From: an uncultured Burkholderiales bacterium
GTDB taxonomy: Bacteria > Pseudomonadota > Gammaproteobacteria > Burkholderiales > Burkholderiaceae_C
DNA length: 40,531 bases
Direction: 5' to 3'
NCBI GenBank assembly: GCA_903880855.1
Contig: CAIRQX010000037.1
Coordinates: forward strand, 1 to 40,531
Part shown: one piece after another, positions 19,706-27,590 of the stretch
Position numbering within the stretch: position 1 is the first letter of the stretch
How the letters are laid out: each line of letters opens with the position of its first letter
Program-made: the position numbers and the translations under genes
Notes under the pieces: model-generated
Told to the model about the DNA's origin: nothing
The model's database searches: none
What the model saw: the letters and a program-made list of their open reading frames with translations, nothing else

Positions 19706-20314
19706 ATGGCCCGCCCCAAATCTGCCAGCCACGAACTAAAACGCGACGAAATCCTAGACATCGCCGCCCAATGCTTTGCCGACGCGAGTTATCCCGCGAC
19801 CAGTATGAACACCATTGCCGCTGCGGGAGGTACGTCGAAAGCGCGGCTCTACCACTACTACGACAGCAAAGAAGCCATTCTGTTTGACTTGCTAGACCGC
19901 TACACCCAGCGCCTGCTTGCGCTCATAGGTGAATCGCAAGCGGTAGCCGAGCGTGGCAACTTAGATGACCGCGCCAGTCTGCACGCCTTGATCAAACGCT
20001 TTTTGCAAGAGTACGAAACATCCGCGACTAGGCATGTAGCTTTGCTGAGCGACACCAAGTTTTTGGGCGAAGAGCAACGCACGCTCATAGTCTCCCGCCA
20101 ACGTGACATCGTCGCAGCCTTCACCCGATTCCTAAAACGCGCCTACCCCGATCGCCTGACCGCCGCCAACCAAACCGCCATCACCATGATGCTCTTTGGC
20201 ATGATTAACTGGACCTTCACCTGGCTACGCCCAGCAGGGGCTCTGAGTTACGAAGCCTTTGCTGACGAAGTTGTTCGCTTACTCGAGAGCGGATTAATTG
20301 GGGTCAGAACCTAA
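19706..20314 (+). CDS. TetR/AcrR-family transcriptional regulator
   Basis: A 202-residue TetR-type regulator. The N-terminal DNA-binding domain spans residues 10-60: RDEILDIAAQCFADASYPATS, then the helix-turn-helix TIAAAGGTSKARLYHYYDSKEAILFDLL. The C-terminal ligand part is helical and fits the TetR_C pattern of regulators near acyl-CoA or aromatic metabolism genes. The last codons (GLIGVRT and stop) fall inside a repeated ATTAATTGG sequence, so the natural C-terminus may have been replaced. The next gene, an MBL-fold protein in the same direction 181 bp on, is a candidate target. Confidence 0.92.
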   Translation: MARPKSASHELKRDEILDIAAQCFADASYPATSMNTIAAAGGTSKARLYHYYDSKEAILFDLLDRYTQRLLALIGESQAVAERGNLDDRASLHALIKRFLQEYETSATRHVALLSDTKFLGEEQRTLIVSRQRDIVAAFTRFLKRAYPDRLTAANQTAITMMLFGMINWTFTWLRPAGALSYEAFADEVVRLLESGLIGVRT

Positions 20315-20340
20315 TTAATTGGCTTGGTTTATTGCGCTCC

Positions 20341-20422
20341 GTTCAACGGGTTGGGGGTAGGCAAGTTGGCTCCTCGCTTCGCTCTTGATGTCGCCAACTT
20401 GCCTACCCCCAACCCGTTGAAC
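20341..20422 (+). repeat. Long hairpin element A (30-bp perfect stem, 22-nt loop)
   Basis: Positions 20341-20370 and 20393-20422 are exact reverse complements over 30 bases, with a 22-nt loop at 20371-20392 containing CTCGCTTCGCTC and ending ATGTC. It lies 26 bp after the TetR stop, in the 181-bp gap before the MBL gene. There is no T run after it. A second element with the same dimensions and a related loop lies at 26165-26246. It could act as an mRNA 3' end, a transcription terminator or a mobile hairpin repeat; I cannot tell which. Confidence 0.95.
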
Positions 20423-20495
20423 TGCGAGTATTTAGGAGCAAAACAAAACCACCGACAATCCAAATTTTCGCAAACGCCAAAGTCAGGAGACCCCA

Positions 20496-21479
20496 ATGAC
20501 CACCAAAGCCTTCGCCAGCCAAGCCGATTTGACCGATAAGCAGATCAAGTTTGAGCAACTCAGTGCGCATTGCTGGGCTTACACAGCCGAAGGTGATCCA
20601 AACTCTGGTGTGATCATTGGCGACAAATACATCTTGGTCAGCGATGCAACGGCTACGCCCGATATGGCGCGCGATTTGATAAAGAAGATCCGCACTGTTA
20701 GCGACAAGCCCATCAAATATGTGTTGCTGACCCACTACCACGCAGTACGCGTTTTAGGCGCAAGTGCTTATGCGGCCGAAGGCGCGACAGAAATCATCGC
20801 CAGCCACGGTACGCACAGCCTGATCGTGGAGCGCGGGGCGCAAGATATGCAAAGTGAGATTGAACGCTTTCCCCGTTTATTCCGTGGCGTGGAAGGTATT
20901 CCTGGTTTGACATGGCCCACGATGGTGGTGGGGGACGGCAAGCCTGGTCGTCAAGGCACTCTGCGTATTGATTTGGGTGGTGTGGTGGTGGACATTTGGC
21001 ATCCTGGTCAAGGACACACACGCGGCGACACGATTGCGTGGGTCGAGTCTGAAAAAGTATTGTTCAGCGGCGATTTGGTCGAGTACGAGGCGGGCGTTTA
21101 CACCGGTGACGCCCAACTCGAAGAATGGCCCACAACGCTCGAAGCCCTGCGTGCGTTGAACGCCGTAGCCATCGTTCCCGGACGTGGTGAAGCGATGAAG
21201 GGACATGACAACGTCAACAAGGCTTTGGACTACACCAAGCGGTGGGTCGAAACTTTATTCACATGCGGCAAAGAAGCAGCTTCGAAGGGCTTGGATTTGA
21301 AAGCCTCTATGGAACTCACCCGCAAAAGCATGGACCCGGTTTTTGGCCATGTGTTTATCTATGAACATTGCTTGCCATTTGATGTGAGCCGCGCTTATGA
21401 CGAGGCTAAGGGGATAAAGAACCCCCGTATTTGGACGGCAGACCGCGATAAAGAAATGTGGGCGGCGTTACAGGCGTAA
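20496..21479 (+). CDS. Metallo-beta-lactamase-fold protein with altered metal motif
   Basis: A 327-residue MBL-fold hydrolase-like protein. The first metal motif, HxHxDH in active enzymes, reads THYHAVRVLGAS near residue 79: two His remain but the Asp-His pair is replaced by Val-Arg. Later parts are kept: PGQGHTRGDTIAWV near 170, FSGDLVEYEAGVY near 190 and VPGRGEAM near 228. This may be a family-wide substitution and may alter or remove one metal site. The ribosome binding site is AGGAG 7 nt before the ATG (reading ...aggagacccc). It follows the TetR gene and hairpin A. Substrate unknown; hydrolysis of a thioester, lactone or ether is possible for the fold. Confidence 0.88.
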   Translation: MTTKAFASQADLTDKQIKFEQLSAHCWAYTAEGDPNSGVIIGDKYILVSDATATPDMARDLIKKIRTVSDKPIKYVLLTHYHAVRVLGASAYAAEGATEIIASHGTHSLIVERGAQDMQSEIERFPRLFRGVEGIPGLTWPTMVVGDGKPGRQGTLRIDLGGVVVDIWHPGQGHTRGDTIAWVESEKVLFSGDLVEYEAGVYTGDAQLEEWPTTLEALRALNAVAIVPGRGEAMKGHDNVNKALDYTKRWVETLFTCGKEAASKGLDLKASMELTRKSMDPVFGHVFIYEHCLPFDVSRAYDEAKGIKNPRIWTADRDKEMWAALQA

Positions 21480-26100: not shown

Positions 26101-26146
26101 AAATGCGGTGATTTTTTGCCCTTATCACCGCATTTTCTGCGGTGAT
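26101..26146. repeat. Three-arm hairpin (two mutually exclusive stems)
   Basis: Arm 1 AAATGCGGTGAT (26101-26112), arm 2 ATCACCGCATTT (26124-26135) and arm 3 TGCGGTGAT (26138-26146). Arm 2 can pair fully with arm 1 (12 bp, 11-nt loop) or with arm 3 (9 bp, 5-nt loop), not with both. It lies in the convergent gap between the Phd-like gene and metK, 18 bp from hairpin element B. It may serve as a terminator; T runs after the stems are short. Confidence 0.85.
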
Positions 26147-26164
26147 AAAAACCCCATAAGCAAA

Positions 26165-26246
26165 GAGCCAAGGGCTAGGGGATACAAATACCGCGACATA
26201 AAGCGCAAAGCGCGGAGCGGTATTTGTATCCCCTAGCCCTTGGCTC
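26165..26246 (-). repeat. Long hairpin element B (30-bp perfect stem, 22-nt loop)
   Basis: Positions 26165-26194 and 26217-26246 are exact reverse complements over 30 bases; the 22-nt loop at 26195-26216 holds the palindrome GCGCAAAGCGC. Read on the minus strand, its loop matches that of element A (20371-20392) at 18 of 22 positions, and its stem shares GGG, T and GGGG at the same offsets while about half the stem bases differ. It lies 21 bp after the metK stop, in sense with metK. Confidence 0.95.
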
Positions 26247-26267: not shown

Positions 26268-27446
26268 CTACTTAGCAGCAGCCTTCAAATCAGCCGCCTT
26301 ATCCGTGCGTTCCCAAGTGAACTCAGGCTCTTCACGACCAAAGTGTCCATAAGCCGCAGTCTTGCTATAGATAGGACGCAACAAATCCAGCATTTGAATA
26401 ATGCCCTTAGGCCGCAAATCAAAATGCTCGGAAACCAAAGCCGCAATCTTCTCGTCGCTGATCACGCCTGTGCCTTCAGTATTCACTGTGATGTTCATAG
26501 GACGCGCCACACCAATCGCATACGCCACTTGAATTTGGCACTTCGTCGCTAAACCAGCCGCCACAATATTCTTGGCCACATAACGCGCAGCATAAGCAGC
26601 AGAGCGATCTACCTTAGATGGGTCTTTGCCAGAGAAAGCGCCACCACCGTGTGGGCAAGCGCCGCCGTAGGTGTCCACAATGATTTTGCGGCCCGTTAAA
26701 CCGCAATCGCCTTGTGGTCCGCCGATCACAAAACGGCCGGTGGGGTTGATCAAATACTTGGTGTCTTTCAACCATTCTTTGGGCAATACAGGCTTAATCA
26801 GTTCTTCAATGATCGCGTCATTGAAACTTTGCTTCATCTTGGTCGCTGTTTCGCTCTGATCTGGGCTGTGCTGGGTAGACAACACCACGGTGTCAATGCT
26901 GTGGGGTTTGCCGTCCACATAACGCATGGTCACTTGGCTCTTGGCATCAGGACGCAAGAAAGGCAAGCGGCCATCTTTACGCAACTGCGCTTGGCGCTCG
27001 ACCAAACGGTGTGCGTAATAAATAGGTGCAGGCATTAACTCAGGTGTTTCGCTGCATGCGTAGCCAAACATCAAGCCTTGGTCGCCAGCGCCAGTGTTCA
27101 AGTGGTCGTCAGAGGCATGGTTCACGCCTTGGGCGATGTCGTTAGATTGCTTGTCATAGCAAACCATGACAGCACAACCTTTGTAGTCGATGCCGTACTC
27201 AGTGTTGTCATAGCCAATGCGTTTGATGGTGTCACGAGCCACTTGGATGTAGTCGACATGCGCGTTGGTAGTGATTTCGCCTGCAAGTACGACCAAGCCC
27301 GTGTTAGTCAGTGTTTCAGCGGCAACGCGGCTACGTGGGTCTTGCGCGAAGATTGCGTCCAAAATCGCATCGGAAATTTGATCCGCTACTTTGTCGGGGT
27401 GGCCTTCTGAGACCGATTCAGAAGTAAAGAGATAGTCTGCTGACAT
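26268..27446 (-). CDS. metK: S-adenosylmethionine synthetase
   Basis: A 392-residue Met[23 protein letters not shown] (residues 6-27) holds the ATP-binding His, [12 protein letters not shown] near 124 the first family signature, and [23 protein letters not shown] near 274 the second. It makes SAM from methionine and ATP. The ATG at 27444-27446 follows GGAG with 7-nt spacing; the frame stays open 26 codons upstream, but that part coincides with a strong hairpin leader and is unlike MetK. Hairpin element B lies just behind its stop. Confidence 0.98.
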
Positions 27447-27590
27447 AAAAAAGCTCCATTCAGTTGATGTTGGCGTTGCCAACTCTGAAGGGAGCCCGGC
27501 GAACGCTTTAGCAGATGTGTGCAAATTGTTGTTGCACGCACACCAGAGGGTGTTTGTCGCTCTGCAAGTAGTTCTTTAACTCAGCGACAA
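27447..27590 (-). promoter_or_regulatory. Structured metK leader, possible RNA regulator or attenuator
   Basis: Read as metK RNA, the last 49 nt before the AUG form a two-tier hairpin. The outer stem is GCTCCCTTCAG (27485-27495) with CTGAATGGAGC (27453-27463), 11 bp with one mismatch; the inner stem is GTTGGC with GCCAAC (27469-27474 and 27478-27483) around a 3-nt loop. The outer 3' arm contains the GGAG ribosome binding site and is followed by six U and the AUG. Upstream lie an imperfect hairpin (about 27516-27543) and an inverted repeat TTGTCGCT/AGCGACAA (27554-27561, 27583-27590). I do not recognise a known SAM riboswitch class in it. Confidence 0.65.

Follow-up and report, generated by a model that had tools for sequence, protein, structure and literature searches.

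The two long hairpins of the window, that is, of the whole 40,531-nucleotide stretch of DNA analysed here from an uncultured Burkholderiales bacterium, belong to a dispersed family of elements of about 82-100 bp whose outer stem is almost free in sequence and whose conserved part is an apical internal loop, GCGACAT/GGAGC. Mispairs within the stems indicate that constraint acts on the fold of one strand (hereafter the model strand, minus for element A and plus for element B; Table 1), opposite to the strand on which the loop was originally noticed. The family is best read as a REP-like or RPE-like dispersed palindromic repeat, a novel variant marked by a long stem that is hypervariable yet compensated. 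The explanation that we tentatively prefer, while granting that it may well be wrong, is a REP-like dispersed palindrome whose folded single strand is read by a trans-acting factor, only the fold and the apical motif being inherited.

Table 1. Positions of the two hairpins and of the neighbouring genes in the window.
Feature	Position	Strand	Details
Element A	20341..20422	- (constrained strand)	arms 20341-20370 and 20393-20422
Element A, apical segment	20371-20392	-	reads GACATCAAGAGCGAAGCGAGGA
Element A with unpaired feet	20333..20430	-	5' foot TACTCGCA, 3' foot GGAGCGCA
Element B	26165..26246	+ (constrained strand)	arms 26165-26194 and 26217-26246
Element B, apical segment	26195-26216	+	GACATAAAGCGCAAAGCGCGGA
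TetR-like regulator gene	19706..20314	+	ends 26 bp before element A; named by inspection
MBL-fold hydrolase-like gene	20496..21479	+	follows element A; named by inspection
metK-like gene	26268..27524	-	ends 21 bp from element B; named by inspection

A sequence-only reading of the window had described two hairpins with 30-nt arms that are 100% complementary and 22 nt apart, loops agreeing at 18/22 positions and stems at 15/30. All of this was reproduced, the agreement being counted by eye, and the distances of 26 and 21 bp to a stop codon were confirmed from the ORF ends, as was the absence of a T run after either element. The same reading placed the hairpins in sense with the ending gene: stop codons do adjoin them, but at both A and B the strand whose fold is constrained is antisense to that gene. 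The window holds seven inverted repeats of at least 16 nt within 200 bp, none of which, besides elements A and B, exceeds 18 nt. The covariance model matched element A with 86.3 bits on the minus strand and element B with 88.8 bits on the plus strand, and the feet of A are close to a consensus, CCGNA-stem-GGAGCGA, derived from 30/141 copies selected by the start of their stem. Two separate palindromes lie nearby: ATTAATTGGGGTCAGAACCTAATTAAT at 20293-20319, which provides the TetR-like gene with its final codons and stop codon, and an 11-bp palindrome at 26122-26148 (TTATCACCGCA/TGCGGTGATAA), 16 bp before element B and, by eye, with no T run after it.

Chance is excluded as the source of the loop similarity, since in the source genome (2.81 Mb, 168 contigs) the loop pattern with at most 3 mismatches occurs at 17 places, 14 of them long hairpins and 3 not, and a reversed control pattern at 1. 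In the named collection the pattern was found in 25 contig stretches, which belong to Limnohabitans sp. JirII-31 or to MAGs carrying the label Comamonadaceae, Burkholderiales or Betaproteobacteria, and 47 elements were tabulated as a loop-defined set. An alignment made with MAFFT from 33 of its 45 usable elements (A1; near duplicates left out, L069 and L027, which has an N in its stem, excluded), with a structure string set by hand from their pairing, has 93.0% of cells paired and both sides changed at 31/34 pairs. Its covariation score is 0.831, against 0.217 (sd 0.013) in shuffles, 0/500 of which reach it, and at most 0.140 with slid partners. The covariance model built on A1 (R1), towards whose structure the elements found with it lean, matched at least 32/84 genomes of the genus, 11/12 chosen genomes and 10/399 genomes in a sample of the family, including 4 from the genus itself; in the source genome 20 matches represent 17 distinct places, as three of them repeat a place on its second strand.

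A second alignment (A3), made of 45 from 60 listed representatives, two of them from outside the list or its first choices, is 90.0% paired, with 31/33 pairs changed on both sides and a score of 0.855 against 0.203. The model built from it (R2) matched at least 42/84 genomes of the genus and at least 20/40 high-quality ones. Among the matches listed, 17 fall in the source genome and 29 in G003; 14 genomes have a single match, and 28 have more than one, with 4-29 each, where an element may match on both strands. Only 5/399 genomes sampled from the order were matched, strongly only the source genome and G169, and few matches lie outside the genus. Grouped by their flanks, the 141 copies of the covariance-model set occupy 48 loci, of which 31 have more than one copy. 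The original proposal of a family of hairpins was thus upheld by loop-pattern and covariance-model copies across the genome and the genus, the covariance-model search that it had suggested giving 17 places here and further copies in relatives.

No Rfam family matched the window at gathering score (0 matches); scanning by E-value, over 361 bases around element A and over 8 loci, produced 8 matches, none of which reaches gathering score and most of which are to eukaryotic miRNA families. The 361-bp region had no match in plasmids, nor the loop pattern in viral contigs (0 matches), and we found no publication on this hairpin family in a search outside which most of the subscription literature lies. 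Long hairpins with larger apical domains occur in other genera of the family (L161, L162 and L163), apparently a sister class: L162 and L163 have GCAGCGA-ATAAAGGAGGAG and GGGGGACA-TCGCGG in common, and L161 and L162 a CGTAGC foot.

Read on the model strand, an element consists of a CCGNA foot (sometimes), the first arm, GCGACAT, a tip hairpin, GGAGC, the second arm and a GGAGCGA foot (sometimes). In the 130/141 copies that were parsed the outer stem has a median of 30 pairs (range 19-38) and the apical segment a median of 25 nt (range 18-31 nt), and 28/130 have no gap and no mispair besides G:T. Among the copies listed, GCGACAT varies to GCGCCAT, GCGATTT, GCGACTT and GCGACGTT, and GGAGC to TAAGC and TGAGC. 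The tip hairpin is small and varies in a matched fashion (GCGC/GCGC, GAGC/GCTC, GCAC/GTGC), two of its four pairs being unpaired in 13/33 A1 copies. Near the 5' foot we found GTAG in 12/141 copies, CGTC in 11/141 and GNAG in 32/141; at the other end GTAG occurs in 5 and CGTC in 0.

The loop-defined set provides the cleaner test of which strand is constrained (the covariance model used for the larger set may favour G:T). In 46/47 of its elements, L027 being left out, the strand read originally has 74 A:C mispairs against 4 G:T, and by locus cluster 17/20 lean this way, 0 the opposite way, with 3 ties; A:C on that strand is G:T on the model strand. In the covariance-model set (130/141 copies parsed, 11 left out; the orientation of two elements of L193, on G000:C68, is uncertain), the model strand has 275 G:T, 90 G:A, 37 A:A and 33 A:C mispairs, and more rarely G:G (13), T:T (8), T:C (3) and C:C (3), with 41 locus clusters for the model strand, 0 against and 7 ties. 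Mispairs are thus mostly G:T and G:A and rarely A:C or T:C, as a constrained fold of the model strand implies. On these data it is scarcely credible that the elements are intrinsic terminators or unrelated local palindromes. A stop codon does lie on the side that makes the strand originally read sense in 82/100 intergenic copies, and on that strand at least 4 T follow within 12 nt in 12/141, but neither window copy has a T run, the mispairs of that strand are of the wrong type for folding, and the common apical motif together with the covariation excludes both possibilities. The earlier judgement that these are no simple terminators therefore stands, the model strand having a T run, so defined, in 0/141 copies.

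The strand bias does not depend on the direction of the neighbouring genes. In the intergenic copies (92/102 parsed) G:T outnumbers A:C by 192 to 6, and the four gene contexts give 134:6, 22:0, 29:0 and 5:0. The second of these is the opp/opp context, in which both neighbours run against the model strand, as at the TetR/MBL site of the window (20341-20422); its 14 parsed copies form locus clusters of which 7 are for the model strand, 0 against and 3 ties, and the last (opp/same) comprises 7 copies. The mRNA of the gene ending beside the element is accordingly not the carrier of the constraint.

Copies lie mostly between convergent or tandem genes. A crude ORF caller placed 39/141 in ORFs, and these were left out of the context counts; 102 were counted as intergenic, only 7 of them between divergent genes. 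The gene on the 3' side of the model strand is convergent in 82/100 intergenic copies that have a gene there (62/82 within 75 bp), or 27 to 13 by locus cluster (p 0.04), and the gene before the element is in sense with the model strand in 79/102 (26 clusters to 14, 1 tie). The strand originally read thus tends to lie in sense after stop codons by the raw count, but only by 27 to 13 once orthologous sites are collapsed. Close pairs of elements are inverted, 5' feet inward, in 34/38 cases and in 14/17 distinct locus pairs.

Eighteen copies lie clearly within genes (uvrA 9, valS 6, recG 3), and the reading frames of all three run open through the hairpin. Six of the copies were named by NCBIfam (uvrA one, valS two, recG three); assignment of the rest relied on flanks in common, on the insert region of L221 and on the coding sequence surrounding L224. 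In 17/18 the model strand is the sense strand of the gene (uvrA 8/9, valS 6/6, recG 3/3), the sole antisense copy being L271 in the uvrA of G074, whose apex is reversed. By eye, the peptides inserted in the three proteins are unlike each other. In coding copies the G:T bias is weaker (G:T to A:C 17:8 in eight uvrA copies, 4:2 in the ninth and 16:9 in six valS copies); the three recG copies give 4:0.

One role first considered for these hairpins, that of a 3'-end element in the mRNA of the ending gene, is not supported in that form: the opposite strand is kept foldable, 7/102 copies lie between divergent genes, and 18 are inside genes. A broader RNA reading is a serious rival, although we regard it as rather doubtful. 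The model-strand hairpin would then act in transcripts as a barrier, as an RNase III/ProQ-type site or as a stabiliser, within or after the preceding gene or in an antisense RNA entering the next one. G:T occupies about 7% of outer-stem cells (275/3879), of the order of the G-U share in RNA helices. The orientation of the model strand with the preceding gene also speaks for RNA, and its orientation within genes, that in uvrA included, strengthens this rival; the same figures, with the model strand in sense at all in-gene sites (17/18) and in 79/102 intergenic copies, weaken the single-stranded DNA reading. Against an RNA element, however, the bias is equally strict where neighbours are antisense (opp/opp and opp/same), no T run follows the model-strand hairpin, and there is no Rfam family. 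DNA is favoured over an RNA driven by the neighbouring genes because the bias held with both neighbours antisense to the model strand.

How the arms stay matched was approached through orthologous copies. At the TetR/MBL site, compared through the locus of the MBL-fold hydrolase-like gene, the window copy is separated from that of G007 by two matched pair changes and 0 unmatched (flank identity 94.4%); L005 and L039 differ by six matched changes and 0 unmatched (85.7%), and L009 and L019 by 18 matched changes and one other (78%). Single changes, for the most part G:T, are seen at other loci, and in L069 much of the pairing is gone. In 22 independent intergenic pairs with flank identity of at least 85% (mean 89.9%), those with fewer than 30% identical stem pairs or with differing gaps having been set aside, 58 of 591 stem pairs have changed (9.8%, close to the flank divergence): G:T takes part in 26 single changes and not in 10 others, 20 changes are double and matched, and 2 are of other kinds. 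The 20 doubles are Watson-Crick in both copies, 8 of transition type and 12 of transversion type, for which there is no route via G-U. The original claim that stem changes are matched on both arms is supported by these pairs and by the covariation of A1 and A3; its corollary, that pairing is either selected or copied, fares less clearly, the matched changes agreeing with it and the ortholog data fitting second-site compensation and arm copying alike.

A purely mutational origin, in which quasi-palindrome template switching matches the arms with neither function nor selection, would account for such doubles, for a rate of pair change near that of the flanks and for loci that change in pairs only (6/6 at L005/L039). 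We nevertheless consider it improbable. A strand-blind process gives as many G:T as A:C mispairs, where 275 to 33 were found (intergenic 192 to 6), and the conserved apical motif and the decay in related genomes are left unexplained. The strand asymmetry thus largely refutes mutational maintenance as the sole cause, and template switching may be a supplier of matched changes.

Decay of copies is seen at several sites. In recG the hairpin is intact in G005 and survives as in-frame decayed remnants in G048 and G063; G050 has a short loop without a hairpin, in a gene 98% identical over the C-terminal part. Among the rows listed for uvrA, G063 is intact, G048 has the same apex and a different, poorly matched stem, G050 retains traces of the arms without an apex, G045 one arm and part of the other, and G052 none; for valS, also among the rows listed, G045 (L318) holds a decayed copy with a reversed apex. 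Genomes G045, G050 and G052 have a single R2 match each among the matches listed. Decay of several sites in the same genomes suggests that a trans-acting factor may have been lost from them, with the caveat that the assemblies of G050 and G052 are incomplete (92 and 85%). L318 and L271 have an apex that reads in the opposite direction to that of their orthologues in the same position of the gene; it looks as though it had turned over between the inverted arms.

The family has dispersed within genomes, but at a slow pace. Non-orthologous copies of one genome reach an arm identity of at least 0.7 in 12/914 pairs, the best pair (0.93) being two copies on different contigs of G005. Among the rows listed for one site, G005 has two copies, G048 one, G063 half an arm and G050 none, a pattern in which gain and loss are indistinguishable. 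The similar copies at different loci would suit a classical MITE or fold-back transposon moved by a known transposase, an explanation that we judge very improbable: terminal repeats are not conserved across copies, their stems being variable, no cognate transposase was found in the two protein families searched (PF01797 and PF00078), and the target duplications looked for as a sign of mobility were not there, flank repeats being no longer than with shuffled partners. Neither did recG, uvrA, valS, metK or other sites yield a clean insertion boundary, the flanks being too diverged or the loci too variable. Many sites are common to several species and a valS-like copy to different genera, so that the elements are more static than expected of a mobile element. 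Two other genera of the family hold hairpins that resemble the valS copy (L351 in G125 and L160 in G270), and the flanking codons that L160 also has in common with the valS copies suggest that this insertion may be very old. The 3' site of metK, where element B lies, is occupied in the same orientation in G003, G005, G027 and G029 (L210, L223, L246 and L264) by copies with an unrelated stem and another apex class than element B, which would reflect either very fast change or re-insertion at one place.

Two kinds of partner enzyme were considered and rejected. The Y1_Tnp domain of RAYT proteins is present in 65/84 genomes, including the element-poor G045, G050 and G052, and lies beside other palindromes. 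A AATTGGGG palindrome site was found near the RAYT gene in 10/10 RAYT loci read, and for this reason looks like the true RAYT-linked REP; in two carriers (G029 and G074) an element of the present family occurs about 1 kb away, with another gene between. The AATTGGGG motif is also contained in the window palindrome at 20293-20319. Retron- or DGR-like copying was rejected on the distribution of RVT_1, found in only 7/84 genomes; among the 28 genomes listed with more than one R1 match only G048 has it, as a fragment, and G078, with one weak R1 match, carries another.

Among known systems, integron attC sites are recognised as a folded strand with little sequence conservation, and in both respects they resemble the present elements. 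Their stem base, however, carries R'' RYYYAAC / R' GTTRRRY boxes, and an attC-like R-box pair at the stem base occurs in only 1/141 copies, which rejects identity with attC. The likeness to REPs is broader. REPs, as the available part of one account describes them (PMC3733652), lie between convergent or tandem genes near 3' ends, form dimers of several orientations and are found in-frame within uvrA, further repair genes and tRNA-synthetase genes. In common with them the present family has dispersed palindromes near 3' ends, inverted pairs, in-frame copies in repair and tRNA-synthetase genes and, as proposed here, a single-strand hairpin as the recognised form. Compensatory changes are also described for REPIN spacers, in what was available of that source (PMC3116915). 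By contrast, REP stems are given as 5-13 bp with loops of 2-20 nt in the portion available (PMC3733652), against about 30 pairs here; the present stem is almost free in sequence, with conservation at the apex and not in stem and tag. REPs of the GTAG and CGTC superfamilies bear the unpaired tag at one end; in the present family GTAG lies near the foot in 12/141 copies. GTAG families are associated with a RAYT gene, and the present family has no link to the RAYT of its genus. A REP-like or foldback role, already suggested by the sequence-only reading, is thus the best fit, yet stem length and RAYT linkage depart from REPs and target duplications are lacking. Rickettsia palindromic elements (RPE) are, as far as the available text of one source goes, in-frame inserts with a conserved peptide in unrelated conserved proteins (PMC10969869). 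The copies in uvrA, valS and recG are likewise palindromic inserts translated in-frame in unrelated protein genes, but RPEs measure about 150 bp and keep their peptide, whereas the present elements measure about 85 bp and their peptides differ between genes. Placement is thus REP-like, and with stem length, RAYT and peptide all at variance the family is neither REP nor RPE. The selfish palindromes described in mitochondria of algae and fungi are also hairpin repeats, scattered through spacers, and can be likened to it by description alone, from the available part of the source (PMC2670323).

Under the REP-like explanation that we prefer, one strand would fold into an outer stem of about 30 bp, an apical internal loop (5' GCGACAT / 3' GGAGC, or close variants) and a variable tip hairpin, and a structure-reading factor of the lineage, acting in trans, would recognise this single-strand fold. 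The acting form would somewhat more probably be single-stranded DNA than RNA, by analogy with REP elements and HUH nucleases. Fold and apical motif alone would be inherited, with second-site change, or copying from arm to arm at replication, keeping the arms matched; copies would survive where they do little harm, at gene 3' ends and in protein loops, and would decay once the factor is lost. A stronger form, in which the factor reads the fold and GCGACAT/GGAGC while arm-to-arm copying rewrites the stem and its sequence drifts near-neutrally, is in our view unlikely; if true, such a hairpin would persist for as long as the genus has existed, or longer.

Sequence is what most bacterial repeats are recognised by; in the present family shape, and not sequence, appears to be inherited. 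A nearly free 30-bp stem with a one-strand fold opens two questions to testing: in which form, DNA or RNA, palindromic repeats are maintained, and whether selection or template switching keeps the arms matched. With its copies in uvrA, recG and valS the family brings to a further lineage the puzzle, known from REPs and RPEs, of palindromes in repair and tRNA-synthetase genes, and close relatives with intact, decayed and absent copies constitute a natural experiment towards the partner factor.
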